Positions 624 through 27,334 of a stretch of 53,682 nt of DNA are shown in pieces. Source of the DNA: an uncultured Lentisphaerota bacterium (GTDB lineage: Bacteria; Verrucomicrobiota; Lentisphaeria; Victivallales; UBA1829); NCBI GenBank assembly GCA_900320095.1, contig ONQZ01000018.1:1-53682 (forward strand). Direction: 5' to 3'. The notes beneath the pieces are model-generated. The model made no database searches. It saw only the letters and a program-made list of their open reading frames with translations, and was not told the origin of the DNA. The position numbers were made by a program, and so were the translations under genes. Within the stretch, counting starts at the first letter, position 1. The number at the start of each line of letters is the position of its first letter.

Positions 624-664
624 GCTGAGATTCCCATTCTGATTCTAAAATTCTAAAACACACG

Positions 665-701: not shown

Positions 702-719
702 GATTACGGGGAAAATGGA

Positions 720-2189: not shown

Positions 2190-2237
2190 AGGGCTGGTAT
2201 CCGGTCAATGTGGGGTGATATGACGTTTGGGGCGGGG

Positions 2238-4656: not shown

Positions 4657-4792
4657 TTTCTTCTCCACTATGCATCATCTCTGTTTTTGAATAAACAGTT
4701 TTTTCCCTCTATAAGCAGTCGATAATAGTTTGGAAAGAAATCATAGCGTATCTTATGGACAGATTAATGTAACGCGGAAACGGCGGGGATTC

Positions 4793-4831
4793 AAGCCGGA
4801 AAGAGCATTTTGTCGGATATTTTTCCGGCTT
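4793..4831. repeat. perfect 10-bp inverted repeat and neighbouring hairpin downstream of the Bax1 gene
   Basis: AAGCCGGAAA at 4793-4802 is the exact reverse complement of TTTCCGGCTT at 4822-4831. A second palindrome, GCCGGAGTCTCCGGC, lies at 4875-4889. Both are in the 243-base gap between the R-M genes and the Bax1 gene. They may act in transcript ending, but neither has a clean T-tract. I see no gene in this gap. Confidence 0.5.
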
Positions 4832-4899
4832 TCCGTTCGGAGTCTCTCACGATGAGCTCGACGCCGACTGTATAGCCGGAGTCTCCGGCGGAAGACGGT

Positions 4900-7502: not shown

Positions 7503-7648
7503 GCCGCGGCCTCCGTTTGAGCAGAAATGAGGCAGTTCGCGGACAAAAAGAGAGGACCGCATACGGCGTTCCGCACGTCCGTCGCCGGATGTCTGAACAC
7601 GGTCATGAAGCGGTCCTTTCTTCTGAGAAAACGGATGGGATTTGGGGA

Positions 7649-8935
7649 TTACCCGATGACCACCCGCTTGAGGTTTTTCTTGCCGGCCTTCAGGATCAGG
7701 GCGCCATCGGTGAAGTCGGCGGCCGTGACCACGCGGTCGATCGTGGCGACGCGTTCGTCGCCGCAGTAGGCTCCGCCGCCCTGAATCAGACGGCGCGCTT
7801 CGCTGTTCGTCTTGCAGAGGCCCGCCTGCACGAGGAGCGTGATGATGTTGATGCCCTCGGCGGGGAGTTCGAGGTTGAACGTCGGGAGGTCGGCGGCGGC
7901 GACGCGGCGGACGGCGGCGAGGTCGATCTTCGCGATCTCGCTGGAGGTCGGGATCGCGCCTGCCTCGTCGGCGAATCCGAATTTGGTGCCGGCGGCGCAG
8001 AAGACCTTTTCCGCCTCGGCCTTGCCGTGCGCGAGCGCGGTCGCCTCGTAGGCGAGGATCTCCTTGGCACGGTTGATGTTGCCGCCGGGGGCGCAGAGAC
8101 GCTTGATTTCGTCGACCGGAAGCGCGGTGAACCCGAGCATGAGCTTCTCGACCTGCGAGTCGTCGGTGTTGCGCCAGAACTGGTAGTAGTCGAACGTGCT
8201 GTAGCGTTCGGCATCGAGCCAGACGGCGTGGCCATTGGACTTGCCGAACTTGTTGCCGTCCTTGTCCATGAGGAGCGGCATCGTGAGGCCGTAGACGGCA
8301 TTCTGTTCGAGGCGGCGGACCAGTTCGGTGCCGCAGGTGATGTTGCCCCACTGGTCCTGTCCGCCGAGCTGGAGGCGGCAGCCGTGGGTGCGGTAGAGGT
8401 GCAGGAAGTCGTAGCCCTGCAGGATCATGTAGTTGAACTCGAGAAACGAGACGCCGACCTCGGAGTTGAGGCGCATCTGCACGGATTCGGCCTGAAGCAT
8501 GCGGTTCACGCTGAACTTGGAGCCGATGTCGCGCAGGAAGTCGAGATACAGCATGCCCGCGAACCAGTCGGCGTTGTTCGTGAAGATCGCGTTGTCCACG
8601 GAGATGAACCGCTGGAGCTGGGACTTCAGGCACTCCACGTTGTGCGCCACTTCCTCCTTCGACAGGATCGGACGCGCCGTGGACTTGCCGGACGGGTCGC
8701 CCACGAGCGCGGTCGCGCCGCCGACGAGCACGATCGGGGTGTGGCCGCATTTCTGCATGATGCGCATCGCCATGACGGGGAGCAGGTGTCCCACGTGGAG
8801 GCTGCTGCCGGTCGGGTCGAATCCGACGTAGAAACGGACTTTTTCCTTGCCGAGAAGTTCGCGCACCTCGTCTTCGGCGGTGCACTGGTAAATGAAGCCG
8901 CGTTCCCGCAGCACATCAAAAGCGTTCTGTTCCAT
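7649..8935 (-). CDS. tyrS: tyrosyl-tRNA synthetase
   Basis: 428 residues, normal bacterial TyrRS length. Class I signatures are clear: HVGH at residues 47-50 (HIGH motif) and KFGKS at 229-233 (KMSKS motif). The tyrosine pocket shows in QLGGQDQWGNI around 190-198. The last 60 or so residues, with INIITLLVQAGLCKTNSEARRLI (written here only as the S4-like region), form the RNA-binding S4 domain. It charges tRNA-Tyr in the cytoplasm. A strong promoter-like sequence sits just upstream at 8969-8997. Confidence 0.97.
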   Translation of the reverse strand: MEQNAFDVLRERGFIYQCTAEDEVRELLGKEKVRFYVGFDPTGSSLHVGHLLPVMAMRIMQKCGHTPIVLVGGATALVGDPSGKSTARPILSKEEVAHNVECLKSQLQRFISVDNAIFTNNADWFAGMLYLDFLRDIGSKFSVNRMLQAESVQMRLNSEVGVSFLEFNYMILQGYDFLHLYRTHGCRLQLGGQDQWGNITCGTELVRRLEQNAVYGLTMPLLMDKDGNKFGKSNGHAVWLDAERYSTFDYYQFWRNTDDSQVEKLMLGFTALPVDEIKRLCAPGGNINRAKEILAYEATALAHGKAEAEKVFCAAGTKFGFADEAGAIPTSSEIAKIDLAAVRRVAAADLPTFNLELPAEGINIITLLVQAGLCKTNSEARRLIQGGGAYCGDERVATIDRVVTAADFTDGALILKAGKKNLKRVVIG

Positions 8936-8968
8936 AGTTGTTCCTTTCCGAAATGGATATATCTATTT

Positions 8969-8997
8969 AATATAGCACGGATTCCGTCTTTCTGCAA
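8969..8997 (-). promoter_or_regulatory. sigma-70-type promoter for tyrS
   Basis: On the minus strand TTGCAG, 17 bases, TATATT. The expected start point is about 8962, giving a leader of about 25 bases before the tyrS ATG. Confidence 0.65.
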
Positions 8998-9021
8998 TCC
9001 GATTCCGGCGTTTTCCGGGCA

Positions 9022-9789
9022 TTATTCCGGCAGAATCACCGGACGGCCGCCGCAATCGAAGCGACGGAACGGGCAGCCGTAGACGGGCCGGAGAGTTTCG
9101 GGCGTGAGGACGTCCGGGGGATCGCCTGCAGCGGCGATGCGCCCTTCGTGCAGGAGCATCACGTACCCGGCGCAGTCGAGCGCGAGCTGGAGGTCGTGCG
9201 TGACGACCAGGATGCCGACCTCGGGCGCGAGGCGGCGGAGCAGGGACACGATCTTCCGCGTAACGGCGGGGTCGGCGGCGGACGTCGGTTCGTCGAGCAG
9301 AAGCAACCCCGGCGACCGTACCAGCGCCGCCGCCGTGAAAACGCGCTGGCGTTCCCCGCCGGACAGCGTGCCGCACAGGCGTCCGCTCAATTCAGTCAGG
9401 TCCAGCAGTTCGAGCGCGCGTTCGAGGCGGGTGGACTGTTCCGGCGAGAGCGCGCCGGAGAGACGCGACACGCCGGTCAGCCCCATCGCGACAGTCTCCC
9501 GGACGGTGTAGTCGGTGAGCGGGACGGCGACGTGCTGCTGGACGACCGCCAGACGGCGGACGCGTTCCGCGGGGGACCATTCGGCGACCGGGCGTCCGTC
9601 GAGCGTGACGCTGCCGGAATCCGGGGTCAGGTAGCCGGAGAGAAGCCGCACGAGCGTCGACTTGCCGGAGCCGTTTCGTCCGAGCAGCGCGGCGATCCGG
9701 CCCGGCGCGATCTCGAGGGAAACGCCGTTCAGGAGCGGTCCGCGCGCCCCGGGATGCGTGTAGACGAGTTGTTCCGCGGTCAACTTCAT
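9022..9789 (-). CDS. ABC transporter ATPase of FecE/BtuD type (B12 or iron-chelate import)
   Basis: 255 residues. Walker A GRNGSGKST near residue 37, signature LSGGERQRV near 142, and Walker B LLLLDEP near 161 are all intact, followed by the H-loop in VTHDL. It should energise the membrane permease encoded just upstream, whose stop codon it overlaps by four bases (ATGA). The substrate is not readable from the ATPase. Location behind metH and the metF fusion favours cobalamin (BtuD role); siderophore or haem are alternatives. Confidence 0.88.
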   Translation of the reverse strand: MKLTAEQLVYTHPGARGPLLNGVSLEIAPGRIAALLGRNGSGKSTLVRLLSGYLTPDSGSVTLDGRPVAEWSPAERVRRLAVVQQHVAVPLTDYTVRETVAMGLTGVSRLSGALSPEQSTRLERALELLDLTELSGRLCGTLSGGERQRVFTAAALVRSPGLLLLDEPTSAADPAVTRKIVSLLRRLAPEVGILVVTHDLQLALDCAGYVMLLHEGRIAAAGDPPDVLTPETLRPVYGCPFRRFDCGGRPVILPE

Positions 9790-10735
9790 GATCCTGCACG
9801 GCTCCTGTTCAAAAGCCAGAGGAAGACCGGACAGCCGACCGCCGCCGTGACCATGCCGACCGGGAGCTCGCGGACCGGCGAAATCACGCGCCCGAGGATG
9901 TCCGCGAGCATCAGGAAGACCGCTCCGGCGAGCGCGGCGGGGATCAGTATCTTCCGGTGGGAACCGCCGTGCAGACGGCGCACGATGTGCGGCAGAAGCC
10001 GATGATCCCGGCCATGGACACCGTGACCGCCGCCAGAAGCGAGGCGAGCGCGAGCAGGACGACCGTCATCACCCGGGCGTTCACGCCGTGGTTCCAGGCG
10101 TATTCCGGGCCGAACGTGAGCAGGTCGACGTCGCCCGCGCGGAACAGCAGAAAGATTGTGGCGGCGGCGAGCAGGACGGCGGCGGGTGCGAGCTGGCGCG
10201 CGGGGTCCACGTTCTGCACGCTCCCGAGCATCCACCACACCACGCCCGCCATGTCGCGCGAATGCGAAAACGTGATGAGCACCATGAGCAGGCTTGATGC
10301 GAGCGTGCCGATCATCACGCCGCCGAGCAGAAGCTCCTCCGCCGTGCGCCTGCGGACCGCCGCGAAGACCAGCAGATTCGCCGTCACCGCGCCCAGCAGG
10401 GCGAAGAGCGGCACGGACATGAACCCCCACGCGCTGAAGCCGAGCAGGATCGCGCCCGCCGCGCCGAGGCCCGCGCCCCCGGACACGCCCAGCAGGTAGG
10501 GTTCCGCGAGGGAATTGCGGAGCACCGCCTGAAAGACCAGCCCGGAGACGGCAAGCGAAGCGCCGACCACGGCAGCCGCGGCGGTCCGGACGATGCGGAG
10601 TTCCACGATGGGGTTCAGCGCGCCGTCCTGAATGAACTCGGACAGCGGGATATGGGCGGCGCCGAACAGCACGCCGCAGACAGCGGCGGCAAGCGCGGCG
10701 GCGAGGTAGATCAGGATGATGCGCGCGGTCTTCAT
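9786..10735 (-). pseudogene. FecCD/BtuC-family permease, interrupted by a frameshift
   Basis: Translation from ATG 10735 gives a normal polytopic FecCD permease (AEPYLLGVSGGAGLG and many hydrophobic segments) up to AGIIGF. It then leaves frame and stops at 9944. The rest, PHIVRRLHGG...ELPVGMVTAAVG...FLWLL, continues in another frame down to 9786. In the family GF is followed by VGLIVPHIVRR; here VGLIV is lost except for two bases, a net loss of about 13 bases at 9993-9995. Both halves keep conserved sequence, so this is a recent lesion or an assembly error. The start overlaps the binding-protein stop (ATGA). As read, no complete permease could be made. Confidence 0.82.
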
Positions 10736-11592
10736 GGCTGGGCGGCCCCGGAAGATTCTTTGCCGGCAAACATCGTTTCGAGGTCGGTTTTCAGGTCCGC
10801 GATGCCGTCGAAGATGCGCGGCCCCGGGCGGAGCAGCGCGGAGTCGTCGCGCGGGATCAGTACGCGTCCCTCGCGGATCGCGCGGATGCCGCTCCACGAC
10901 GGATTCGATTTCCAGTCCTTGCCGTGCGCGAACCAGACGATCACGTCCGGGTCCTCCTTCAGCACGAATTCGAGCGAGATGGACGGGTAGCCCTTCTCCG
11001 ATTTCACGATATTTTCCAGCCCGGCGAGACGCCCGACGGCGTCCGGGAGGGAATCCGCGCCCGCGGTGAGGAGCGGACTGTCCCAGATCACATAGAGTGC
11101 GCGGAGCGGCTTTTTTTCGGATGCTTTGAGTTTCGCCTCGAATCCCGCGATGCGTGCATCGGTGCGTTTCAGCTCGGATTCCGCCTCGCGCGGACAGTCA
11201 AGCAGTTTGCCCATGAGGGCGACCCATGCGCGGTAGTCGTCGAACCCGTCGCACGGGTGCAGTTCGACGGCGATCCCGGCCTGGCGCAGCGCGTCGGCGT
11301 CCTTCGGGTTCACGAATTCGTTGGAGACGACCAGCGCGGGCTTCATGGCGAGGATGCGTTCGAGTTCGGGCTCGGCGAAATTGCCTGCCGCCGGGAGCGA
11401 CTTCACGCTTTCCGGCCAGTCGCACGCGGTGCTCCGCGCGACCAGCTTCCGTTCCTGCCCCAGATGGCAGACCAGTTCGGTCAGCGCGGGCGAGAGCGAG
11501 ACCACGCCGCCCGGCGCGGATTTGCGTTCGTCCGAACACGCGGCGAGGCACAGGATGCAGACAAGCAGAAGCAGGCTGAACAGACGGCGCAT
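10732..11592 (-). CDS. periplasmic binding lipoprotein, BtuF/FecB type (helical-backbone fold)
   Basis: 286 residues. The N-terminus has a signal peptide with lipobox LAAC (Cys19), so it is a lipid-anchored binding protein. GGVVSLSPALTELVCHLG is the start of the class III binding-protein fold, and NFAEPELERILAMKPALVV and KEDPDVIVWF are typical of the two lobes. GGAGG-type ribosome site (GGAGG, seven bases) supports the start. It delivers ligand to the permease and ATPase encoded next. Position 30 bases behind a homocysteine methyltransferase/MTHFR gene and near metH points to cobalamin; the BtuF-like length fits, but an iron chelate cannot be excluded. Confidence 0.85.
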   Translation of the reverse strand: MRRLFSLLLLVCILCLAACSDERKSAPGGVVSLSPALTELVCHLGQERKLVARSTACDWPESVKSLPAAGNFAEPELERILAMKPALVVSNEFVNPKDADALRQAGIAVELHPCDGFDDYRAWVALMGKLLDCPREAESELKRTDARIAGFEAKLKASEKKPLRALYVIWDSPLLTAGADSLPDAVGRLAGLENIVKSEKGYPSISLEFVLKEDPDVIVWFAHGKDWKSNPSWSGIRAIREGRVLIPRDDSALLRPGPRIFDGIADLKTDLETMFAGKESSGAAQP

Positions 11593-11622
11593 GGCTGACC
11601 CTCCGCGTTATCCAAGTTCAAA

Positions 11623-13455
11623 TCACGGCTTCATCACGGCGATCGCCGTCTGGACGTTGCCGAACGGCGCGCTCACGTGGATGCCGCGGACGGCGGACCG
11701 GATGGCGTCGACGGCCTCGCGGGCGATGGCGATGCCCTCAAGGCGCTGTTCCTCGCGCGTTTCCGGGCGCGCCATGCGTGCCATCACGGAATCGGGGACG
11801 ACCACGCCCGGCACCTCGTTCTTCATGAACTCGGCGTTGCGGAGGCTGGCGAGCGGCCAGATGCCGGCGATCACCGGGACGGAGCCGTCGGCGAGCTCGG
11901 GGACGGCTTCGATGAAGCGCAGGAGCGGGGCGGTGTCGAAGACCGGCTGGGTCACGACCGCCTCGGCTCCGGCGTCGATCTTCTCGCGGATGCGGCGGAG
12001 TTCGCGCTCCATGTCGATGGCGTTCGGGTCCGCGCCGACGAGGCAGAACGCGGCGGTCTGCTTGCCGATGGACTTGCCGCCGAAATCGACGCCCCGGTTC
12101 AGCGCGGCCTGCACCTTCACGGCGGCGATGGAGTCGAGGTCGAACACGCCGGACGCGAACGGATAGTCGCCGAGCTTCGGCGGGTCGCCGGTGATGAACA
12201 GGATGTTGTGGATGCCCATGGCGGCGCAACCGAGCAGGTCCGCCTGGATGCCGATCACGTTCTTGTCGCGGCAGCAGCAGTGCAGGACGGTCTCGATGCC
12301 GACTTCCTGCTGGATCTTGATGGCGGTCACGATGGTGGAGACGCGGGAACTGGCGCGCGGACCGTCCGGGATGTTGATGACGTCGAATCCTGCCTCGGCG
12401 CAGACTCTCGCTTTTGCGATGGTGGTGTCGAGCAGATAGCCCTGCGGCGGCACGATCTCGACCGCGTTCACCCACTTGCCGGAGGCGAGCTTCGCGGCGA
12501 AGGAGCTTTTTTCGGCGGCGGGAACGGGGTCCAGGAGCGGGACGGACGGCGCGGCAGGCGCGACCTCGACCGCGTGGGCGTGCTTTGCGAGCGGACTCAC
12601 GCTGCGCGCCATGTCGGCGATGTGCTCGGGCGAGGTGCCGCAGCAGCCGCCGATGCCGCGCACGCCGAGCTGGGCGTAGCGCATGGCGTAGGTGGTGAAA
12701 TACTCCGGGCTGCACATGTAGAGCATGCGGTTGTCCACGCTGCGCGGACTGCCAGCGTTGGGCTGGGCGATCACGGGGAACCTTTTGTCGATCAGCGGCA
12801 GGGCGGTTTCGAGCGCGCGGAGCATCGCGCCGGGTCCGCTGCAGCAGTTGAGGCCGAACGCGACCGGCGAAACCGGGGCCGCATTGATGCGTTCCAGGAT
12901 GGCGGAAACAGGTTCGCCCTTGGCGGTCCGGGCTTCTTCGTCCAGCGCGAAGCTGAGCACGAACGGCACGCCGTCCGCGGAAGACGCCGCCGCCTTCAGC
13001 GCGAGGTCAAGGTCGGCGAGGCTGGCGAGCGTCTCGAACATCAGAAAATCGGGCGCGGCCTTCGCAAGCACGGAGACCTGTTCGGAGAGGATCGTGAGCG
13101 GATCGAGGAACGCCGGGAGTTCGCCGACGGGGCCGACGGACGCGGCGACCATGGCGTTGTCGCCCGCCACCTCGCGCGCGAGCTTGACGGCTGCCTCGTT
13201 GATTGCGGCGGTCTGTTCGGCGAGGCCGAATTTCATGAGCTTGGCGCGGTTCGCGCCGTAGGAATTGGTCGTGAGAACTTCCGCGCCGGCGTCGAGGTAC
13301 GCCGTGTGGATGGCGCGGATCACGTCGGGCCGGGCGAGGCAGAGGTTTTCGAACGAGATGTTGACGAAGAAATTCCGCCTGTATATTTCGGTGCCCATCG
13401 CGCCGTCGAAGATCACGATGCGGTCATGCAGGGCATTTTGAAGAGTCTGTGACAT
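11623..13455 (-). CDS. bifunctional homocysteine S-methyltransferase / 5,10-methylenetetrahydrofolate reductase (YitJ-like)
   Basis: 610 residues in two domains. Residues 1-290 are a homocysteine methyltransferase domain: DGAMGTE near 17 and zinc ligands Cys204 (GLNCC) and Cys271-Cys272 (GGCCG). Residues about 325-610 are an MTHFR barrel (VEIVPPQG, HCCCRDKN, LFITGDPPKLGDYPFASGV), which uses FAD to make 5-methyltetrahydrofolate. The same fusion is known in Bacillus YitJ. It lies 77 bases behind metH, so one domain supplies the methyl donor MetH needs, while the N-terminal domain repeats the first domain of MetH. Confidence 0.93.
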   Translation of the reverse strand: MSQTLQNALHDRIVIFDGAMGTEIYRRNFFVNISFENLCLARPDVIRAIHTAYLDAGAEVLTTNSYGANRAKLMKFGLAEQTAAINEAAVKLAREVAGDNAMVAASVGPVGELPAFLDPLTILSEQVSVLAKAAPDFLMFETLASLADLDLALKAAASSADGVPFVLSFALDEEARTAKGEPVSAILERINAAPVSPVAFGLNCCSGPGAMLRALETALPLIDKRFPVIAQPNAGSPRSVDNRMLYMCSPEYFTTYAMRYAQLGVRGIGGCCGTSPEHIADMARSVSPLAKHAHAVEVAPAAPSVPLLDPVPAAEKSSFAAKLASGKWVNAVEIVPPQGYLLDTTIAKARVCAEAGFDVINIPDGPRASSRVSTIVTAIKIQQEVGIETVLHCCCRDKNVIGIQADLLGCAAMGIHNILFITGDPPKLGDYPFASGVFDLDSIAAVKVQAALNRGVDFGGKSIGKQTAAFCLVGADPNAIDMERELRRIREKIDAGAEAVVTQPVFDTAPLLRFIEAVPELADGSVPVIAGIWPLASLRNAEFMKNEVPGVVVPDSVMARMARPETREEQRLEGIAIAREAVDAIRSAVRGIHVSAPFGNVQTAIAVMKP

Positions 13456-13532
13456 GGGGTGGTTCCGCTGGTTTGATTGAGGTTCGCGTTCTTTCAGCTT
13501 ATTAATATGCCGTCTTTTTTTTATTTTTCAAG

Positions 13533-17135
<3,603 letters not shown>

Positions 17136-17171
17136 GCGCCTCCGTTGAGTTCAGTATTTCGTTGTGTCAAA

Positions 17172-17205
17172 CCCCGCGGGGGAGTTAAGCTGGACGCAGC
17201 CGTCC
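17172..17205 (-). promoter_or_regulatory. short structured leader of metH
   Basis: Between the upstream terminator and metH only about 75 bases are free. They hold two short hairpins: GGACG at 17192-17196 with CGTCC at 17201-17205, and the palindrome CCCCGCGGGG at 17172-17181. This is too short for a cobalamin riboswitch and I cannot match it to a SAM or SAH riboswitch. I see no convincing -35/-10 pair here. Confidence 0.3.
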
Positions 17206-17210
17206 GCCGG

Positions 17211-17248
17211 TAAAAACAAAACGCCGGAAGCTCCGCGGGCCTCCGGCG
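17211..17248 (-). terminator. Rho-independent terminator after the PEGA-like lipoprotein gene
   Basis: On the minus strand CGCCGGAG at 17241-17248 pairs with CTTCCGGCG at 17222-17230 and is followed by TTTTGTTTTT. It ends the lipoprotein transcript before metH. Confidence 0.8.
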
Positions 17249-17292
17249 GAAGAGAACACGTTTGCGTTCTACGGAAAGGAACGCGATGCGGC

Positions 17293-17904
17293 TCACTCTT
17301 TCGACTCGATCGAAATCTCGTCCGGGTCCGCGGGAGCGTTCTTGTCAAGCGGTTCCTGACTGACCACGGATACGCCGTTTTTGTCCACGGAACGGATATC
17401 GGAAGTCCTCGCGTTCGCGTCCGTGACGGGGATCGCAGGCTGGTCGAGCATCTGGTCGTTGAGTTCACGCGCGACTTCCTGACGTTTGCGCTGGGTGGCT
17501 TCCTGTTCGATGGCGGATTCTTCGGGATCCGGGAGCGGCTGGAGGTTAATCACAATATTGCTCTCGGTGAACCGCCATGCGCCGTTGGTGAGGAGTCCGG
17601 CAGCGGGCAGGATGAAAATGCTGCCGAGCGCGTCGAGCCTGCCGGTGGAGCTGAGTTCGCTGTCCACGGCATAGTAGGCGGTACGGTAGCCCGGCTTGTA
17701 CGCCGTGATGAGGAGCGCGTCCCTGGTCGGCACCTCAATGTACATGGGCGAAAGCATGTGGTATTCCACACCGTTCGCGATCACGGAGGCGTCGCTCGGG
17801 GTGACCGTGACGGAAACGAGCTGTTCGCCGCGGGCAAGGAAGGAGCAACCGGAGGTGAATGCAAGGACGAATGCGGCGAACACAGCGAGAAGCGTATATT
17901 TCAT
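17293..17904 (-). CDS. lipoprotein with PEGA-like domain
   Basis: 203 residues from ATG 17904, which has AAAGGA 11 bases upstream; in-frame codons further upstream lie in the promoter and are rejected. The signal peptide ends in a lipobox TSGC (Cys20). Residues 30-80, SVTVTPSDASVIANGVEYH...ITAYKPGYRTAYY, look like a PEGA surface domain. A short hydrophobic stretch FILPAAGLLTNGAW follows near 95-110, and the last 80 residues are charged and probably unstructured. No enzymatic motif is seen. It has its own promoter and terminator, so it is a single-gene unit. Function unknown; cell-envelope location is inferred from the lipobox. Confidence 0.75.
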   Translation of the reverse strand: MKYTLLAVFAAFVLAFTSGCSFLARGEQLVSVTVTPSDASVIANGVEYHMLSPMYIEVPTRDALLITAYKPGYRTAYYAVDSELSSTGRLDALGSIFILPAAGLLTNGAWRFTESNIVINLQPLPDPEESAIEQEATQRKRQEVARELNDQMLDQPAIPVTDANARTSDIRSVDKNGVSVVSQEPLDKNAPADPDEISIESKE

Positions 17905-17946
17905 TTTGTGAAGTCCTTTCAGAATAAGGCAATACGTTTTGTATAA

Positions 17947-17974
17947 AATATAGCGTGGAAACAAATGAATGCAA
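17947..17974 (-). promoter_or_regulatory. promoter for the PEGA-like lipoprotein gene
   Basis: Minus strand TTGCAT, 16 bases, TATATT, about 43 bases upstream of the lipoprotein start. Confidence 0.6.
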
Positions 17975-18077
17975 GCTGGAAATAACTGTTTTCTTGAAAA
18001 AAAACGGTTTTCCGCGAGAATTGAATGCCCATCTTTCAAAAAACAGCCCTTTTCATGCTTTTTTCCGGGAAACATGC

Positions 18078-18107
18078 TTGACAAATGTCATGGCGGGGTT
18101 ACATTAT
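18078..18107 (+). promoter_or_regulatory. promoter of the U32-like/glycosyltransferase operon
   Basis: A perfect TTGACA at 18078-18083 is followed 16 bases later by TACATT (or 18 bases later by CATTAT). Transcription would start near 18113, about 29 bases before the first ATG. The region 17975-18141 is AT-rich. Confidence 0.6.
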
Positions 18108-18141
18108 GAAATGAAATGAATACGATACATTCGCCATACCC

Positions 18142-19341
18142 ATGCGCTTTGATACGGATAATATTATCAATATGAGCTCAGAACAAATCGCCAGAACAAA
18201 ATTCGCCGTCGGGCATTACCTGACGGACAAACCGGACGATCCGCTGTCCTTCGCCGAACTGGCGAAGCGGTTCGCACCCAGGCTCCGTGAAGTCTATTTC
18301 CCGTGGCCCGGCCTCTCGAACGCCCGCGCCAAGGTCTACGACAAGCCGGACGACGAAGAACGCATCGTCGCCGACCTGAAATACTGCCGCGAACACGGCA
18401 TGAAGCTGGACATCCTGGCAAACGCCACGTGCTACGGAGAGAAGGCGTTCACGGAGGAACAGCGGCTTCAGGTCGTCTCGATCATCAGGCACATGGACGA
18501 ACTCGGGCTGTATCCCGAGATCATCACGACCACGTCGCCCTACATCGCGAAGGTCTTCAAGCTGAATTTCCCCGACATCGAGATCCGGGCGTCCGTCAAC
18601 ATGCGCCTGCGGAACACGCTCGCGCTGGAATACCTCGCGCCGCTATACGATTCCTACTACATCTGCCGCGACGTCCAGCGCGACCTGCCGACGTTCCATA
18701 AGATGGCCGCCTGGTGCAGGGACCACGGCAAAAAACTGTGCATGCTGGCGAACAGCGGCTGCGTGCGGAACTGCCCGTGGCAGGTCTTCCACGAAACCCT
18801 TCTTTCGCACAGGTTCACGGATACTATCCCCGAAATGGGCGCGCAGAACCTCGAACTGCTCTGCAACCGGATATTCTCCCAGAAAAAAACATATTCGGAT
18901 TTCCTGCGCTGCAGCTGGATCCGGCCGGAGGATGTCCACGTGTTCGAACCGGAGCTTGAGACGATCAAACTCTCGACCCGCGAGGCGAAATACCCCCACG
19001 AAATCGTGGAAGCGTATGTGAACGGCTCGTACGACGGGAATCTGCTGCGGCTGATGGATCCGTACCACGCCTTCGGATTCCGTCCGAACCGGATCGACAA
19101 TAAGTCGTTCCCCGCGGACTGGGTGACCAGCGGCATCGCGGGCAAATGCGCGGAAAACTGCATGCATTGCGGCAAGTGCGAGGAAATCCTGAAGCAGGTC
19201 ACGAAGTTCGACCTTGACACGACCGCCCGGATCGACGGTTTTTCCTTCGTCGAGAATTTCTACCTGCTTGCGCCGAAGAAAAAAGAGAACAGGGCCGGCA
19301 ATCTGAACTATATTGACCCGATAGGGGGAAAACATTCATGA
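18142..19341 (+). CDS. U32-like cysteine-rich protein, copy 1 of 3
   Basis: 399 residues. The strand/helix rhythm and motifs resemble the U32 'peptidase' barrel: LANATCYGE (Cys97), EITTTSPYIA-type strand, IRASVNMR near 148, and RDVQRDLPT near 176. Cys207 and Cys211 (SGCVRNCPW) and a C-terminal C-x3-C-x2-C-x2-C set (Cys336, 340, 343, 346) look like iron-sulfur ligands. SWIRPED and KLSTR near 258-280 are shared by all three copies. U32 relatives such as UbiU/UbiV, RlhA and TrhP carry Fe-S clusters and perform oxygen-independent hydroxylation; that role here is inference. No ribosome site is clear before either 18142 or the in-frame ATG at 18172. Its stop overlaps copy 2 by ATGA. Confidence 0.7.
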   Translation: MRFDTDNIINMSSEQIARTKFAVGHYLTDKPDDPLSFAELAKRFAPRLREVYFPWPGLSNARAKVYDKPDDEERIVADLKYCREHGMKLDILANATCYGEKAFTEEQRLQVVSIIRHMDELGLYPEIITTTSPYIAKVFKLNFPDIEIRASVNMRLRNTLALEYLAPLYDSYYICRDVQRDLPTFHKMAAWCRDHGKKLCMLANSGCVRNCPWQVFHETLLSHRFTDTIPEMGAQNLELLCNRIFSQKKTYSDFLRCSWIRPEDVHVFEPELETIKLSTREAKYPHEIVEAYVNGSYDGNLLRLMDPYHAFGFRPNRIDNKSFPADWVTSGIAGKCAENCMHCGKCEEILKQVTKFDLDTTARIDGFSFVENFYLLAPKKKENRAGNLNYIDPIGGKHS

Positions 19342-20510
19342 GCAAAATCGTTTACCAGTTGAACACCGATCCGCTTCTGTCGCCCCGGTTTTCCCAGGTC
19401 GTGCCGGTGACGAGCCTGCAGAACTCCAAACGGAAATTCGCCTTCGGCTTCTACTTCGAAAAACGGGCGGGACTCACTTTCCGCCAGCTCGCGGAAAAAT
19501 ATGCGCTGTATCTTCAGGAAGTCTATTTCCCCTGGCCCGGCCTGCTGTCCGCGCGCGAAATCTCCGGCGATCCCGCTCCGCTCCGGAAACGCGTCATCGA
19601 CGACATGAGGTTCTGCCGGTCGAAAGGCCTGAAGCTGGACCTGCTGGTCAACGCGACCTGCTACGGCGACAAGGCCGTTACCGCGGCGCAGAGGGAAGAC
19701 TTTTATGCGAACCTGAACGAGATGGAAAAGGCCGGCATCCTGCCGGAGATCATCACCACCACGTCGCCGTACATCGCGGTCATCGCGAAAAAGCTTCACC
19801 CGAATATCGACTGCAGGGCGTCCGTGAATATGCGTCTGAACTCGACGATCGCCATGGAGTACGTGGCGGACGAGTTCGACTCGTACTACATCTGCCGCGA
19901 TCTTCAGCGCGATCTGCCGACCGTGAAGATGTTCGCGGAATGGGGCAAAAAGAACGGCAAAAAGATCTGCATGCTGGCGAACAGCGGCTGTCTGCGTCTC
20001 TGTCCCTGGCAGACGTTCCACGAGACGCTGCTCGCGCACGATTTTCCGCACATTTTCAATGAGATGAAAGCGCTCGACCTGCCGCCGACCCTGTGCGTCG
20101 GAATCGTTCAGTCCAAGCAGTACGAGGAGATCCTCCGCGCATCCTGGATCCGCCCGGAAGACCTTCACCAGTACGAGCCGTACGTCTCCGTCTTCAAGCT
20201 CTCCACGCGCGAAGCCGACCGTCCCGACCTGATCCTGAAGGCGTATACGTCCGGTACGCATGACGGCGACCTGCTCAGGATACTCGATCCCGGTTTTTCC
20301 TTCTTCGTCCGCCCGTACATCTTCGACAACAAAGCGTTCCCGAAGGAGTGGAGCGAAGGAAAGATCGCCGGAAATTGTGCCAGCAACTGCACGCACTGCG
20401 GAAAATGCGCCGAGGTCCTGAAGCTTATCTACAAACGCGACCCGGAACTGCCGGACGTCAGCAACTATTCCCTGGCGCCCTCGAAACCGCTCGTCATTCC
20501 CGGCTGCTGA
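19338..20510 (+). CDS. U32-like cysteine-rich protein, copy 2 of 3
   Basis: 390 residues, starting within the stop of copy 1 (ATGA), with AGGGGG upstream as ribosome site. It has the same blueprint: VYFPWPG near 57, LVNATCYGD, IRASVNMR-like DCRASVNMR, RDLQRDLPT, NSGCLRLCPWQTFHETL, SWIRPEDLHQYE, KLSTREA, and the C-terminal cysteine set CASNCTHCGKC. All seven cysteines of copy 1 are kept. An extra 25-residue N-terminal lead (MSKIVYQLNTDP...) is not shared. The close overlap implies equal production with copy 1, and perhaps a complex of paralogues as in UbiU-UbiV. Substrate unknown. Confidence 0.7.
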   Translation: MSKIVYQLNTDPLLSPRFSQVVPVTSLQNSKRKFAFGFYFEKRAGLTFRQLAEKYALYLQEVYFPWPGLLSAREISGDPAPLRKRVIDDMRFCRSKGLKLDLLVNATCYGDKAVTAAQREDFYANLNEMEKAGILPEIITTTSPYIAVIAKKLHPNIDCRASVNMRLNSTIAMEYVADEFDSYYICRDLQRDLPTVKMFAEWGKKNGKKICMLANSGCLRLCPWQTFHETLLAHDFPHIFNEMKALDLPPTLCVGIVQSKQYEEILRASWIRPEDLHQYEPYVSVFKLSTREADRPDLILKAYTSGTHDGDLLRILDPGFSFFVRPYIFDNKAFPKEWSEGKIAGNCASNCTHCGKCAEVLKLIYKRDPELPDVSNYSLAPSKPLVIPGC

Positions 20511-20545
20511 TACTTCCCCCTTTCCCCCGTTCAAGGATCCCCCCC

Positions 20546-21643
20546 ATGAAGAACGAACAGAGCAAGCCCGTCAAAAAGAAATTCGCAGTCGGCCATTTCT
20601 ACAACAACGACAAATGCGTGTTTCAGGATGTCGCCGGACGTTATCTGGATCACATTCAGGAGATATTCTTCTCCTGGCCGGGGCTGAAAAACGCCCGGAA
20701 AATGACGGGCGACCCGGAAGCGCTGAAAGACCTGATCGCTGCCGATATGCGCTGGGCGCGTTCCAAGGGGCTTTCCCTCGACCTGCTCATCAACGCCATG
20801 TGCTACGGCGACGAGGCGTTCACGCCGGAGCAGCACGCCCGCGTGATCGGGGCGCTCGCGGACATGGACCGCAGGGGCATCCTGCCGGAGACCGTCACGG
20901 TCATCTCGCCGTATCTGGCGCAGATCATCAAACGCGAATTCCCGACGATCGACATCCGGGCGTCCGTGAACGCGCGCGTTGACAGCATCATCGGCATGGA
21001 ATACATGGCGCCGATGTTCGATTCCTACTACATCAGCCGCGATCTCCAGCGCGACCTGCCCACGCTCCGGGCGTTCCGCAAATGGACCCGCGACCACGGC
21101 AAGAAGCTGTGCATGCTCGTGAACGGAAGCTGCCTGCGGAACTGCCCGTTCCATTTCTTCCACGAGACGCTGAACTCGCACGGGCTGGACCGGACCATTG
21201 CGGAAACGAAGCGCACGGGCATCCAGCCGTCGCGCTGCATCAACATGTACATGAAGAAGCAGTACGAGGAGATCCTGCGTTCGTCCTGGATCCGCCCCGA
21301 AGACCTGCATTTCTACGAGGACGAGGTCGACGTGGTCAAGCTCTCGACCCGTACGGTCCCCGATCCCGAACGCATCATCCGCGCCTACTGCGAACGCAGC
21401 TACGACGGCAATCTGCTGCGCCTGCTCGACCCGGTCTACACGTTCTTCTTCCGGCCGTACATCCTCGACAACAAACGGTTCCCGGCGGACTGGGCAGAGA
21501 GCGGCATCGGCGGCAAATGCGCCACCGGCTGCACGCACTGCGGACGCTGCACGGAAGTGCTGTCCAAGGTCCTGGTCGTCGATCCGGAGTTCGGAAAGGC
21601 GAAAGCCGCGGATTATCATTTCTCCCCGAGGATGAAGATATGA
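20546..21643 (+). CDS. U32-like cysteine-rich protein, copy 3 of 3
   Basis: 365 residues from ATG 20546 with AAGGA upstream; the open frame extends further upstream but without family similarity. It lies 35 bases after copy 2. Shared features: FSWPGL, LINAMCYGDEAF, IDIRASVNARV, SRDLQRDLPT, NGSCLRNCPF, SWIRPEDLHFYE, KLSTRT, and CATGCTHCGRC. The seven cysteines are again conserved, though two local motifs differ (NA-MC for NATC, GSC for SGC), suggesting a distinct substrate or role. Its stop overlaps the first glycosyltransferase gene by ATGA, which ties this family to glycan assembly. Confidence 0.7.
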   Translation: MKNEQSKPVKKKFAVGHFYNNDKCVFQDVAGRYLDHIQEIFFSWPGLKNARKMTGDPEALKDLIAADMRWARSKGLSLDLLINAMCYGDEAFTPEQHARVIGALADMDRRGILPETVTVISPYLAQIIKREFPTIDIRASVNARVDSIIGMEYMAPMFDSYYISRDLQRDLPTLRAFRKWTRDHGKKLCMLVNGSCLRNCPFHFFHETLNSHGLDRTIAETKRTGIQPSRCINMYMKKQYEEILRSSWIRPEDLHFYEDEVDVVKLSTRTVPDPERIIRAYCERSYDGNLLRLLDPVYTFFFRPYILDNKRFPADWAESGIGGKCATGCTHCGRCTEVLSKVLVVDPEFGKAKAADYHFSPRMKI

Positions 21644-22719
21644 ACGGAGACGTAATCCTTATGACGCGGCATCCTTTATTTACCGTTGTTTTATCCGGTT
21701 ACCAGACGGAGCCGTATCTGCAAAAGGCGCTTGACTCCATTGCGAACCAGACGTTCCGCGATTTCGAAGTCATCTGCTATGTTGAGGATTGTACAGACCG
21801 TTCCCTGGAAATGTGTCAGGCGATGGCGGAACGCGATCCCCGGTTCATAGTCGCGACCGGACCGAAAAGCGGCGCTGTGGCGACCACGCGCAATTACGGC
21901 ATCGACCATGCGTCCGGGCAGTATCTGGCCGTGATCGACGGCGACGACTGGCTGGTCCCGGATATGCTCGAAAAACTTGCCGGCAAGCTCGAACAAACCG
22001 GCGAAGTCGATGTGCTGACCTTTGCCGCGGTATCCACGGAAAAAGAAAATGTGGATTGGGATCATGTGAAACGCTTTTCCAATTTCAGACAGTCCGATGA
22101 AGCGGACGTTTTTTCCGGACTGGATGCCGTCCGGCGCTCGGGGCGAAACGGAGGTGCGATCCAGAATTTTACCTGGCTGAGCATCTACCGCGTCGCGTTT
22201 CTCCGGGAACACCGCCTCTATCAGTCGGACGGTCTGCTGATGGAGGATTACGAATGGAATCCGCGCGTGTGGTTTTTCGCAAAAAGGGTCGCCTATCTGG
22301 ATCAGGTTCTCTATGTTTACCGGCGCAGGCCGGGGTCCCTGACGACGGAAACATCTCCGCGCATTGTGCTGGATCTGGCGCGGCAGTTCCGTTCTCTGGC
22401 GGATTTTGCTGAAGGTCGCGATATTCCCGGCGATGTCTTTTCCATCTGGAGCAACCAGTGGATATCCGTCCTTTTCTGGTTCATGTTCCATCCGGTGACG
22501 TCCAGAAAGATCTCAGGCGGCGACCGGAATAAGGCGCTGAACGTGATCCTGTCCGGCGACGGTACAAAACAGTTCAGACGGATCCTGTCGCACGCTTCCC
22601 GCCCGAAACGCCTTGCCGGTCCGTTGATCCGGCTTGCAGCAAAAGGCTTCCAGCTTCCCGCAAAGGCATATTTCCGCAGTCTTTATTATCCCATGATCGA
22701 ACGGAGAGGAAAAAAATGA
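21640..22719 (+). CDS. glycosyltransferase family 2
   Basis: 359 residues. The start overlaps the preceding stop (ATGA) and has GAGGA upstream. The GT-A fold opens with FTVVLSGYQTEPYLQKALDSI and FRDFEVICYVEDCTD, and the metal/nucleotide-binding motif is VIDGDDW near residue 104. MEDYEWNPRVW near 205 provides the likely catalytic acidic residues. It should transfer a sugar from a nucleotide donor during lipopolysaccharide, capsule or glycoprotein assembly at the inner face of the membrane. There is no membrane anchor that I can see. Donor and acceptor are unknown. Confidence 0.85.
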   Translation: MNGDVILMTRHPLFTVVLSGYQTEPYLQKALDSIANQTFRDFEVICYVEDCTDRSLEMCQAMAERDPRFIVATGPKSGAVATTRNYGIDHASGQYLAVIDGDDWLVPDMLEKLAGKLEQTGEVDVLTFAAVSTEKENVDWDHVKRFSNFRQSDEADVFSGLDAVRRSGRNGGAIQNFTWLSIYRVAFLREHRLYQSDGLLMEDYEWNPRVWFFAKRVAYLDQVLYVYRRRPGSLTTETSPRIVLDLARQFRSLADFAEGRDIPGDVFSIWSNQWISVLFWFMFHPVTSRKISGGDRNKALNVILSGDGTKQFRRILSHASRPKRLAGPLIRLAAKGFQLPAKAYFRSLYYPMIERRGKK

Positions 22720-23930
22720 ACGCCTCCCCGTCCGCACAGGTCTCCGGGAAAAAGGTCCTCATCTATTACTACAAATTCGCCTCAAAGCTGGGCGGAAGCG
22801 ATTACCTGCCGCTGCTTCTTGTCGCGGAACTCCAGCGGAGAGGATGCGAAATCACTTTGGCTCTGGACTGGGAATCCGACCTGAAACATGCCGCGGACCT
22901 TTACCATGTGGATCTGGATGCGGAAAAAGTCCATGTCCTGACCATCAAACCCCAAAACAGTCTGATGAAGAAACTGGATTCGATTCTGCCGTTCTACAGA
23001 GTCCGCCAGCTGAAGAGAATGGTGAAACACGCCGACGTCTGTATTTCCACGGCGAACATGATCGACTTCGGGAAACCCGCCTATCATGTGGTTTATATGC
23101 TGCGGCTGTTCGGCGACAACGCGTTCAACGATTTCTGTCAGCACAGACCGCCGCTGTCCGGTTTCCCGCGCCTCAAACGCAGCATCCGTACTCTGCTCGC
23201 CGAATCCATCCTGCGTCCGCTCCTCGGGGTGCGTTCGACACGGAAGATCCTTGCCGACCGGCGGGAACACATCTATGTCCCGTCCCGATACGTCGCCGAC
23301 ACCATGCGCGCGTTCTTCGGACCGTTCAACTGCACCGTCTTTTACCCGCCCACGTCCTTCGATATCCCTCCGTTGGATGTGGAACGCGACCCGATGCGCG
23401 TCATCTATCTGGGGCGCATTCAGCGGGAAAAATGCATCCTGGAGATCGTTGGCATTGTGGAACGCGCCCGGACGCTTTCCGGCCGGAACATCCAGCTGCA
23501 TCTTGCAGGCCCGCTGACGCCGGGGGACTATACGGAGAACCTGAAACGGATTGTCGCGGAAAAACCGTGGATTCAGCTGGCCGGACCCGTCTACGGACAG
23601 GAAAAAGCCGCTTTCCTGCTCGGCGGGACATACGCCATCCACGCGGAACGCGACGAGGCGTTCGGCATCTCCATTACGGAATACCTGAAAGCAGGATGCA
23701 TTCCCATCGTCCCGGACGAAGGCGGCACGCCGGAGGTCATCGACGATCCCGCCCTGACATACCACACCGACGAAGACGCCGCCCGGATTCTGGTTCATCT
23801 CCTGAACGATGAAGCGTTCCGCCGGGAACAGCTCGACCTTTGCAAAAAACGAGCCGAAGAGTTTTCCTTTGAACGTTATCTGGAAACTCAGCACAGGATT
23901 CTTGACGGCATCCTGGGAAAGCAGGCGTAA
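22716..23930 (+). CDS. glycosyltransferase family 4
   Basis: 404 residues, starting in the stop of the GT2 gene (ATGA). It is a GT-B enzyme: N-terminal KVLIYYYKFASKLGGSD glycine-rich acceptor loop, and a C-terminal donor domain with VIYLGRIQREKC near 228 and the E-x7-E motif in EAFGISITEYLKAG near 325, followed by IPIVPDEGGTPEVI. Such enzymes use NDP-sugars and keep the anomeric configuration. The central AYHVVYMLRLFGDN segment is not standard and may set acceptor choice. Last gene of the overlapped operon. Confidence 0.87.
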   Translation: MNASPSAQVSGKKVLIYYYKFASKLGGSDYLPLLLVAELQRRGCEITLALDWESDLKHAADLYHVDLDAEKVHVLTIKPQNSLMKKLDSILPFYRVRQLKRMVKHADVCISTANMIDFGKPAYHVVYMLRLFGDNAFNDFCQHRPPLSGFPRLKRSIRTLLAESILRPLLGVRSTRKILADRREHIYVPSRYVADTMRAFFGPFNCTVFYPPTSFDIPPLDVERDPMRVIYLGRIQREKCILEIVGIVERARTLSGRNIQLHLAGPLTPGDYTENLKRIVAEKPWIQLAGPVYGQEKAAFLLGGTYAIHAERDEAFGISITEYLKAGCIPIVPDEGGTPEVIDDPALTYHTDEDAARILVHLLNDEAFRREQLDLCKKRAEEFSFERYLETQHRILDGILGKQA

Positions 23931-23963
23931 CACCGTTCTTTTCGCCTTATAAAACAATCGCGC

Positions 23964-23992
23964 TTGAAAAATGGGAAGGTGTGGTGTATATT
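23964..23992 (+). promoter_or_regulatory. promoter for the second GT2 gene
   Basis: TTGAAA at 23964-23969, 17 bases, TATATT at 23987-23992, placing the start near 24000 and the ATG at 24033. The 24033 gene can therefore be expressed apart from the upstream operon. Confidence 0.65.
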
Positions 23993-24032
23993 TTTTTCTG
24001 TCAAATATTTAACATGGTAGTCTTTTTGAGAG

Positions 24033-25154
24033 ATGAAACCGTTTTTCTCGTTTGCCGTCCCATGCTGCGACGTTGAGCCGTACATTGAGGAATGCCTCCA
24101 GTCCATCCTGAACCAGTCGTTTCAGGACTGGGAGTGTATTCTCGGCATCGAAACCTCGAAAGACCGGACCGAGGAGATCATCCGGAAAATGACGGCCGGC
24201 GATCCCCGGTTCAGGATCTTCACCGGTCCCCGCTCCGGGTCATGTTCCGTTCCCAGAAATACCGGGATCGACATGGCGAAGGGCGAATACATCATCTTCC
24301 TCGACGGCGACGACACCATCGCGGATGGCTGTCTCGAACGTCTCCACGAAAAGATATGCGCGAATCCCGGAGCCGATCTCTATCCGTGCGCGATCGTCGT
24401 TAACGATGAGATCGCCGGCAAAAACGAGCTCCGGGATAACTACGGGGCGGATGCTCCTGCGGAGATGAACGGCATTGAGTCGGCTCTTTACCTGGACCGC
24501 CGTCTGCACGGAAGTTTCTGCCCGATGCTTCAGCTGACCGTCCACCGCCGCGAATTCCTGGTGGAATATGGCTTGAAATGCATTCCCGGACTGCGCCATC
24601 AGGACAGCGAGTTCTCGCCGCGGGCGCTCTATTTCGCCAAACGTGTCGTCCCGCTTCACGAGCCGTTCTATCTCTACCGCATCCGCCCGAATTCCGTCCA
24701 GACCAAGGCAAAAGGCGCAGACTATTTCATGAAGGATTGGGCGATCATCACGAAGTCCCTGCTGGCATTCTATGGAAAAGTCTCGCGGGAAGACGGGTTC
24801 GATGCGCACGTGGTTCCAGGCTGGATTCACCAGTGGTTTTCTCGTATGAATTACATGTGGTTTTCCCCGAAAGCACAAAGAAATATCTCCCGTGAAAAAC
24901 GGGTGGAATGGCTGAAGTTCATTTTTGAAGACGGCTTCGATTCCTACAATCGCATGATGAAATACGGTACCATTTCGCAGCGGATCGTCGCGTTCCATGT
25001 TCGGATGTTCGTCAAATGCCCGGCTCTGAGATGGTATGCCGAACTCTTCTTCCGTTTCTATTTCAACCTTGCGGAGCGGAAACGCCCGGAACAAACCGAA
25101 CAGCTCTGCACCTCGATTCCTCCTCAAAACGGTTCTGCCGCTCAGAATCCCTGA
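24033..25154 (+). CDS. glycosyltransferase family 2
   Basis: 373 residues. FSFAVPCCDVEPYIEECLQSI is the GT-A nucleotide-binding start and FLDGDDT near 90 is the DxD-type motif; GLRHQDSEF near 185 gives later acidic residues. The general plan and order of motifs resemble the 21640 glycosyltransferase, so the two may be distant duplicates. It has its own promoter, 102 bases after the GT4 stop, and its end is closed by a strong bidirectional terminator. Probable role: one sugar transfer in the same surface glycan; specificity cannot be read. Confidence 0.85.
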   Translation: MKPFFSFAVPCCDVEPYIEECLQSILNQSFQDWECILGIETSKDRTEEIIRKMTAGDPRFRIFTGPRSGSCSVPRNTGIDMAKGEYIIFLDGDDTIADGCLERLHEKICANPGADLYPCAIVVNDEIAGKNELRDNYGADAPAEMNGIESALYLDRRLHGSFCPMLQLTVHRREFLVEYGLKCIPGLRHQDSEFSPRALYFAKRVVPLHEPFYLYRIRPNSVQTKAKGADYFMKDWAIITKSLLAFYGKVSREDGFDAHVVPGWIHQWFSRMNYMWFSPKAQRNISREKRVEWLKFIFEDGFDSYNRMMKYGTISQRIVAFHVRMFVKCPALRWYAELFFRFYFNLAERKRPEQTEQLCTSIPPQNGSAAQNP

Positions 25155-25207
25155 CACGTCGGTCTGCACTGCCTCCTGTGAGGCGACTGAAAACTGGAAA
25201 TAAAAAA

Positions 25208-25250
25208 CGTCCGCTTCCGAACGGGGTGTCCCGAGGAAGCGGACGAACTT
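25208..25250. terminator. bidirectional terminator between convergent units
   Basis: CGTCCGCTTCC (25208-25218) pairs perfectly with GGAAGCGGACG (25235-25245). T-rich sequence follows on the plus strand (AACTTTTT) and six A precede it, giving a T-tract on the minus strand. It can end both the GT2 and the GH97 transcripts. Confidence 0.9.
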
Positions 25251-25297
25251 TTTCTGCTGAGATCGGCAGGCTGAAATTCAGCTTGTCTGTTCGGCTC

Positions 25298-27334
25298 TTA
25301 CTTCTTGATGAAGCGGAAGGAGAAACCGCCGCGGCCGATCATGCGGACGGTGATGACGTCGCCGGCTTTGGCGGTGCCTTCGGCGATGTCCCAGGCGCGC
25401 GGATCGTCGGGCTTCACGTCGCCGTTGATGAAGTAATTGGAATCGACATCCTTGCCGTCCGCGATCTTGCGGAAGGAATAGGTGTCGCCCGCCTTGCCGG
25501 GGACGGTGAACTTGACTTCGCGCGTCTCGTTCTTGCCGTTGATGCCGCCGACGTACCAGGTGTCGCCTTTGCGGCGGCCGAGGATCACGAAGTCGGCGGG
25601 TTCGCCGCCGAGGTACTTCGTGTCGTCCCAGGTGGTCGGGAGCCCGGCGATGAAGTCCTTCACCTTTTCGGGGAGAGCGCGGAACGCGGACGGGCGGTCG
25701 GCCATGTGCTGGCAGGCGGATTCGAAGACGACCGGGAGCGCGAGTTCATGCGCGTGGGAGGTGAGGTGCTTGTGCTGGGAGTTGGTAAATGCGGTGGGGG
25801 TGTAGTCCATCGGGCCGACGACGTTGCGCGTGAAGGGCAGCGTGGTGTTGTGTTCGGCGGCCGGTTCGGTCATCATCGGGTGGTTGTTGTACTGTTCCGC
25901 GCCCCAGACGCACTCCATGGACATGAGGTTGGGGTAGGTGCGGGACCAGCCGCGCGGGAGCGTGGAGCCGTGGAAGTTGACCATGATCTTGTGCGGCGCG
26001 GCGTCCTTCAGGATGTCGACGTAGTACTGCATCATGCTCTGCTTGTCGCTCTCGAAGAAGTCGATCTTCACGCCCTTGACGGTCTTTTCGGTAAGCCAGG
26101 CGAATTCCTTTTCGCGGGATTCATGGGTGTTGAAACGGTCGCGCGGGCCGCCGCCGACGTAGTTGTGCTTTCCGCCGGAGTTGTACCACAGCCACACGCC
26201 GACGCCTTTCTCCTTGGCGAGCTTGAGCGCGTCGTCGATGTTGCCGCCGTTGCCCATCACGTCCCATTCCCAGTCGATCAGGACGTTCGGCCACTTCATT
26301 TCGGAGGCGAGCAGGATGTAGTCCTTCACGATCTGGTAGTCCTTGCTGCCGTGGTTGTATGCCCAGTAGACCCAGGACGCCACGCCGGGGGTGATCCAGG
26401 AGACGTCCGGCACCGCGCATTCGGGCGCGAGGTCGTCGATGAGCGTGGATTCCACGATGTCGGCGAGCGTGCCGATCACGACGCAGCGCCACGGGGATTT
26501 CCACGGGAGCGTGGTCGTCGGGTTGACCGCGCCCTGGTTCGCGCCTTCGCCGGGATCCGGATAATGCGTGGTGAAGCTCACGCCCTTGTCGTCGACGGAG
26601 GACACCAGGTAAGTGCCGCAGTAGGTGCCGTCAAACCACGTTTCGGAGAGGAGTCCCCACGTGGACTTGTCGGCGGAGTTGAAGAGCAGGGGATAGTTCC
26701 AGTTCCGGTTGGCGCCGCCACGTCCGCCGCGTCCGCCCGGACCGCGCTGACCGCCCTGGCCGCCCTGCGGACCGCCGCGGAGCTGGTCCGCCGTATAGGC
26801 GATGTAGCGGTCTTCATAGCTGGTCACGCGGCGCTGCATGCGGAATCCGTCGGTCAGCGGGAACACGAACGACGTGGATTCGCCCTGGAATTCGACGTCG
26901 CCGGAGCCGCCGACGCTGTAGCGGAACGCGAAGGAATCGCTGCCCGCGCGCACGATCACGCCGATCTGGTTCGCGCCTTCGCCGAAGACGAGCGTCTTTT
27001 CGTTCATCCGGACGGTGCGTTCGGAGCGCTTGCCGTTCACCGCCGTGTACTTCTCGGTCACGAGCGCGACGCTGCTGCCGGACGGGATCTGCCCCGCGAG
27101 CTTCAGCTGCGAGAAATCGTACTCAGCCTTGTTCGACTTCAGGCCGAGGCGGACCTGGAAGACTTCCGACGCGTTGCGTTCCACGCGGAGCACGTTGCCT
27201 TCGTCGAGGTACACGCGGATCGTCTTGTCCGCGTCCGGCGAAGTCAGAAAGGGATCGGCGGCGGAGCAAAGTCCGGCGGCGATGAAGACCGCGGCGCAGG
27301 AGAGGGCCGCTTTCATGGAGAGAGAGAACTTCAT
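25298..27334 (-). CDS. glycoside hydrolase family 97 (alpha-glucosidase/alpha-galactosidase type)
   Basis: 678 residues with a signal peptide (residues 1-25, cut near CSAA), so exported. The N-terminal beta-sandwich covers about 30-300, followed by the barrel: PNVLIDWEWD, GVWLWYNSGG, KGVKIDFFESDKQ and VNFHGSTLPRGWSRTYPNLMSME, hallmarks of GH97. The aspartate of KIDF and the glutamate of SME are candidate catalytic residues. A Gly/Arg/Gln-rich insert at 186-211 (GGPQGGQGGQRGPGG...) is not part of the fold. It cleaves alpha-linked glucose or galactose; GH97 holds both inverting and retaining enzymes and I cannot assign which. Own promoter and terminator; no SusCD pair is nearby. Confidence 0.92.
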   Translation of the reverse strand: MKFSLSMKAALSCAAVFIAAGLCSAADPFLTSPDADKTIRVYLDEGNVLRVERNASEVFQVRLGLKSNKAEYDFSQLKLAGQIPSGSSVALVTEKYTAVNGKRSERTVRMNEKTLVFGEGANQIGVIVRAGSDSFAFRYSVGGSGDVEFQGESTSFVFPLTDGFRMQRRVTSYEDRYIAYTADQLRGGPQGGQGGQRGPGGRGGRGGANRNWNYPLLFNSADKSTWGLLSETWFDGTYCGTYLVSSVDDKGVSFTTHYPDPGEGANQGAVNPTTTLPWKSPWRCVVIGTLADIVESTLIDDLAPECAVPDVSWITPGVASWVYWAYNHGSKDYQIVKDYILLASEMKWPNVLIDWEWDVMGNGGNIDDALKLAKEKGVGVWLWYNSGGKHNYVGGGPRDRFNTHESREKEFAWLTEKTVKGVKIDFFESDKQSMMQYYVDILKDAAPHKIMVNFHGSTLPRGWSRTYPNLMSMECVWGAEQYNNHPMMTEPAAEHNTTLPFTRNVVGPMDYTPTAFTNSQHKHLTSHAHELALPVVFESACQHMADRPSAFRALPEKVKDFIAGLPTTWDDTKYLGGEPADFVILGRRKGDTWYVGGINGKNETREVKFTVPGKAGDTYSFRKIADGKDVDSNYFINGDVKPDDPRAWDIAEGTAKAGDVITVRMIGRGGFSFRFIKK

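Follow-up and report, generated by a model that had tools for sequence, protein, structure and literature searches.

The window analysed here is the whole 53,682-nucleotide stretch of contig ONQZ01000018.1 from an uncultured Lentisphaerota bacterium (assembly GCA_900320095.1), in which genes were called with a custom script rather than a standard gene finder. On its forward strand lies a block of six genes: three encoding predicted U32-fold proteins with putative iron–sulfur (Fe-S) sites (FeS1, 18172..19341; FeS2, 19338..20510; FeS3, 20546..21643), and three encoding predicted glycosyltransferases (GTs), namely the family-2 enzyme GT2a (21640..22719; PF00535, E 1.1e-24), the group-1/family-4 enzyme GT4 (22716..23930; PF00534, E 3.4e-11) and a second family-2 enzyme, GT2b (24033..25154; PF00535, E 1e-26), whose best-scoring solved chain was GalT1 (5HEA, E 2.2e-14). 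The block forms one operon. ATGA overlaps join FeS1 to FeS2, FeS3 to GT2a and GT2a to GT4, whereas FeS2 and FeS3 are separated by a 35-base gap; GT2b follows GT4 at a distance of 102 bases. The predicted operon promoter (18078..18105, forward strand) consists of TTGACA at 18078-18083, a 16-base spacer and TACATT at 18100-18105. In an upstream alignment of ten loci (the window and its close relatives L004–L012), TACATTA was present in all ten and TTGACA in nine, with TTGAAA in L011, so that every locus has a recognisable copy. For FeS1, the ATG at 18172 is preferred and the frame start at 18142 is less likely because the former aligns with the start in most relatives. These data agree with the preliminary description of this DNA, which reported three tandem paralogues linked to the GT genes by overlaps and one gap behind a single TTGACA promoter. 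The three FeS proteins proved to be 46–52% identical to one another.

Each of the three FeS proteins has eight conserved cysteines arranged in two tetrads, with codons at 18430, 18760, 18772 and 18862 and at 19147, 19159, 19168 and 19177 in FeS1; at 19659, 19989, 20001 and 20094 and at 20376, 20388, 20397 and 20406 in FeS2; and at 20801, 21131, 21143 and 21236 and at 21518, 21530, 21539 and 21548 in FeS3. In an alignment of 74 family members, C108, C218, C222 and C253 were kept in 73–74 sequences and C347, C351, C354 and C357 in 70–73, giving the family pattern CXnCX3CX30C followed by a second, C-terminal CX3CX2CX2C tetrad. The tetrads are in keeping with the Fe-S role proposed earlier, and it is highly probable that the trio binds Fe-S clusters at these predicted sites.

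The relation of the trio to U32 proteins had also been proposed. Neither Pfam nor NCBIfam gave a match above cut-off for FeS1, FeS2 or FeS3, and the trio did not match the Pfam U32 family (PF01136) at E <= 1; four of the 74 family members matched it at E <= 0.01 (best 9.5e-6). The proposal was supported by these few Pfam matches, by a profile–profile match to U32 spanning 231 columns and by the predicted TIM-barrel fold, which agrees with that of the solved U32 member 5D88 (Mk0906). Judging from these models, the trio almost certainly adopts a U32 fold. A protein search returned 1991 homologues at E <= 1e-3; among the 120 listed, none had a precomputed Pfam domain and nine were named, eight as "hypothetical protein" and one as "ferredoxin". 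In locus L071 (9322-11609), the gene directly after a family member resembles, on inspection by eye, a canonical U32 gene.

The common predicted fold might suggest that the trio modifies RNA, as RlhA and TrhP do. We regard this as improbable because the window's own genome already has a canonical U32 gene in one copy (741 amino acids, L096), the FeS proteins extend little beyond the barrel, and the copy number and high divergence described below are ill-suited to a conserved RNA target. Peptidase activity, as implied by the old U32 name and by the title of 5D88 (a U32 peptidase), is hardly credible, since the conserved cysteine tetrads fit cluster binding and the biochemically characterised U32 oxidases covered in an excerpt of a 2024 review (PMC11574389) act on quinone precursors and RNA.

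We then compared the block with its close relatives; those with named records come mostly from rumen Lentisphaeria/Victivallales or from rumen bins. FeS1 precedes FeS2 behind a recognisable promoter copy in all nine of L004–L012, with an 87-amino-acid FeS fragment between the two in L009. Eleven loci (the window, L004–L012 and L043) carry two to five FeS copies each, and GTs lie downstream of them in seven (the window, L004, L005, L007, L008, L009 and L012), the GT content of L009 being two short GT2a pieces only. The window and L008 share the order FeS-GT2a-GT4-GT2b, which recurs at another chromosomal site in L004 and L005; the FeS3–GT2a overlap is peculiar to the window, the corresponding gap being 35 bases in L005 and 44 in L008. 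The FeS–GT block of L012 also sits at this second site, where none of the window's flanking genes was found in L004, L005 or L012; in L005, Pfam identified a sensor kinase and an SNF2 helicase as the left flank, and L004 and L012 have genes of equal length and order. L012 has a divergent GT4 (48% identical), and GT4 matches of 46–50% identity occur on other contigs in four genomes of the genus (G120, G288, G290 and G291). Two GTs of L007 flank a gene for a Stealth protein (PF11380, E 1.3e-41); the Stealth family is known for capsule sugar-phosphate transfer. In a quick tree with SH-aLRT support only, FeS1, FeS2 and FeS3 formed separate clades crossing species, and their duplications therefore look older than these species. 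Locus L010 (7599-13601) has five tandem FeS genes, three FeS1-like and two FeS2-like, with no GT, facing an MscS channel gene.

The block stands above its surroundings in synonymous divergence (dS). Against four relatives, the median dS of the other window genes was 0.17–0.23, compared with 0.67–0.85 for FeS1 and FeS2 and 0.93–2.19 for orthologous GTs, or about 3–11 times the median of the surrounding genes; these Nei–Gojobori values with Jukes–Cantor correction saturate above about 1 and could be raised by weaker codon bias. Genes without a match were skipped, one G290 row (52567, 34% identity) was dropped, and the rows for GT2b of G292 and FeS3 of G120 matched paralogues; GT2b of L007 had a dS of 1.35. 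In G167, five of the six block genes lay above all 29 other genes compared, FeS2 being trimmed there by a fragment edge (dS 0.77 for the whole gene). To the left of the block, a putative lipoprotein of 203 amino acids (17293..17904, reverse strand; recognised by eye) is divergent from the operon; its dS of 0.42–0.54 was the highest outside the block in all four relatives, and it had no Pfam match above cut-off in a scan of a longer, 263-amino-acid frame. To the right, a GH97 glycoside hydrolase gene (25298..27334, reverse strand; PF10566, E 3e-66) had a dS of 0.09–0.19 against L006, L007 and L008. As in polysaccharide loci, the GT genes lie in one operon, and divergence is well above the flanks against the four relatives except in FeS3. 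On sequence grounds, the pattern resembles replacement of the block by recombination through conserved flanks, or exchange between strains.

The eight conserved cysteines, the hydroxylase-like predicted fold and the diverged GT block together make a change to a surface sugar without O2 likely in kind, and we tentatively propose, with rather less than even confidence, that the trio alters a precursor of a variable surface glycan, most probably by hydroxylation. FeS1–FeS3 would be U32-fold enzymes with two Fe-S clusters per protein, oxidising a glycan or its lipid carrier independently of O2 by analogy with UbiU/UbiV, RlhA and TrhP, and the neighbouring predicted GTs would assemble the surface glycan from the altered precursor; the block may be exchanged between strains. 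Prephenate, the oxygen source reported for anaerobic ubiquinone synthesis in the excerpted review (PMC11574389), could be the oxygen donor and should be available because a chorismate mutase gene is present.

Several results weigh against this proposal. Foldseek gave a modest TM-score against 5D88 (0.45 when normalised by query length and 0.68 by that of the target), and the sequence profile reached 5D88 at E 0.41 only. An excerpt of PMC6747719 gives the U32 motifs as CX6CX15CX3/4C, with CXnCX12CX3C for UbiV and CX6CX16CX38C for UbiU, and one demonstrated cluster each for UbiU and UbiV; the conserved set C108, C218, C222 and C253 fits neither the motif of the characterised hydroxylases nor that of UbiV, and C211, which would yield CX6C, is a cysteine in 57 of the 74 members. 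No flippase, polymerase or export gene was found among the genes called from 17293 to 27334 (the trio, the three GTs, the 203-amino-acid gene and GH97), the remaining genome not having been searched. Although 12 of 13 genomes of the genus have an FeS member, G106 has none, and four of the 11 loci (L006, L010, L011 and L043) have two to five FeS genes and no GT. Outside L004–L012, neither of two sets of neighbouring proteins (one of 66, the other of 91) had more than a single PF00535 protein; each tally listed 25 families, so that a GT occurring once could be hidden. The dS of FeS3 was little raised (0.29–0.39 against the four relatives), and in L011, the most distant relative, FeS1 (0.84) and FeS2 (0.83) were less than twice as diverged as the flanks (0.46–0.48). 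Finally, the divergence of FeS1 and FeS2 does not depend on GTs because it was equally high in G290 and G120, where GTs are absent; FeS1 and FeS2 themselves therefore belong to what varies.

The GT-free loci, the FeS divergence in GT-free genomes and flanks that vary between species could also mean that the FeS and GT genes merely share a variable, recombining locus and that FeS function is unrelated to glycans. We consider this unlikely, given the ATGA coupling of FeS3 to GT2a and the single-promoter layout in the window, and the recurrence of one FeS–GT order at two sites.

Beyond the close relatives, an FeS member was detected in 72 of 288 genomes drawn from the phylum (E <= 1e-3), and an RdhA/QueG-like protein (E <= 1e-10) was encoded in 54 of these 72 versus 16 of the 216 others, counts uncorrected for shared ancestry. 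At least 48 of 90 FeS places have this partner at a distance of 5 kb or less. In scans with partner and IclR profiles built from members of the same loci, it lies within three genes of FeS in 18 of the 38 loci with a called FeS gene (from L013 and 40 others fetched, L044 not being counted among the 38), 12 of which also have an IclR gene. Ten of the 32 genes lying immediately upstream of FeS on its own strand matched an IclR helix-turn-helix, and among 11 loci representing the phylum's other classes, nine had no partner nearby. The partner profile matches PceA, a tetrachloroethene reductive dehalogenase (E 2e-17), and QueG (E 4e-6), while partner P0121 scores well short of the NCBIfam thresholds (49.5 of 160.35 bits for RDH; 31.2 of 200 for QueG). 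Some genomes hold many paralogues of the partner. Other FeS neighbours outside the genus were mixed, with housekeeping genes alongside GH106, DUF4838 and LacI/AraC regulators; for these tallies, 66 of the 104 proteins in one set and 91 of the 106 in the other were counted, to the exclusion of short frames, proteins of the partner and IclR families, the near-duplicate L059 and, by no set criterion, a few others. L043 and L062, both of the window's genus, and L013, which belongs to a different phylum, are in the second set. L068 has one gene resembling GT4 by eye. The L080 cluster (3-19782) combines FeS and three RdhA/QueG-like genes with GH28, GH71, a glycyl-radical enzyme, a radical SAM protein resembling its activase and a weak SSF-transporter match; L069 (9774-19291) has FeS, IclR and an RdhA/QueG-like gene, with three further RdhA/QueG-like genes nearby.

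The family's most widespread association is thus with a corrinoid-type reductase, in partly catabolic settings. The glycan role suggested in the preliminary description is supported among close relatives but not across the family, where the recurrent neighbours are RdhA/QueG-like proteins and IclR regulators, with some glycan-degrading enzymes, rather than GTs. The GT association was seen only in this genus and close kin, where it has the look of belonging to a variable locus for an envelope glycan. The FeS protein could also work in redox partnership with the RdhA/QueG-like protein to break down unusual sugars or glycosides anaerobically, its catabolic or detoxifying role being kept in this genus with the GTs as mere neighbours. 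The co-occurrence and proximity of the partner, its resemblance to PceA and QueG, and the nearby GH106, DUF4838, GH28 and GH71 genes make this a possibility to be taken seriously, if a doubtful one: the window's genome (about 93% complete) has no partner match at E <= 1e-3, three of six genus genomes drawn have none at E <= 1e-10 and the other three a weak one (about 1e-15), the remaining neighbours are mixed, and the trio is preceded by its own promoter and linked to the GTs by overlaps, with FeS and GTs together at two sites. Because the commonest partner is RdhA/QueG-like rather than a GT, FeS probably represents an anaerobic redox enzyme that this genus has recruited to a variable envelope glycan; under the surface-glycan proposal, the trio would descend from such a general redox module, which the genus recruited and multiplied. 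More speculatively, and on balance doubtfully, the trio may represent a new U32 branch with two clusters per subunit that hydroxylates or otherwise oxidises sugars without O2, an enzyme co-diversified with GTs here and paired with a corrinoid reductase in sister lineages.

On this more speculative reading, surface-glycan variation in the rumen genus would extend to oxygen-atom chemistry. The family forms a large branch that bears no family name. It has a second cysteine tetrad, is accompanied in most carriers by an RdhA/QueG-like protein and includes, in rumen bacteria, a strongly diverged, GT-linked form; the trio provides concrete proteins for asking whether anaerobic oxygen transfer reaches carbohydrates.

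Among known systems, the corrinoid reductases RdhA and QueG resemble the family's partner, whose profile matches PceA and QueG over the Fe-S region, but P0121 scores far below their cut-offs and the window's genome lacks a match. Capsule and O-antigen-type polysaccharide loci are known as exchanged loci. The block resembles them in its GT genes, the conserved flanks around a high-dS block, the divergent GT4 of L012 and the Stealth gene of L007; it differs in the absence of flippase, polymerase and export genes from the block and in having predicted Fe-S barrel enzymes as its constant core. Unlike characterised U32 proteins, the trio has CXnCX3CX30C with an extra C-terminal CX3CX2CX2C and no Pfam U32 match, whereas the predicted barrel, the cysteine set after strand 7 and the profile similarity are shared with 5D88 (Mk0906), UbiU/UbiV, RlhA and TrhP.
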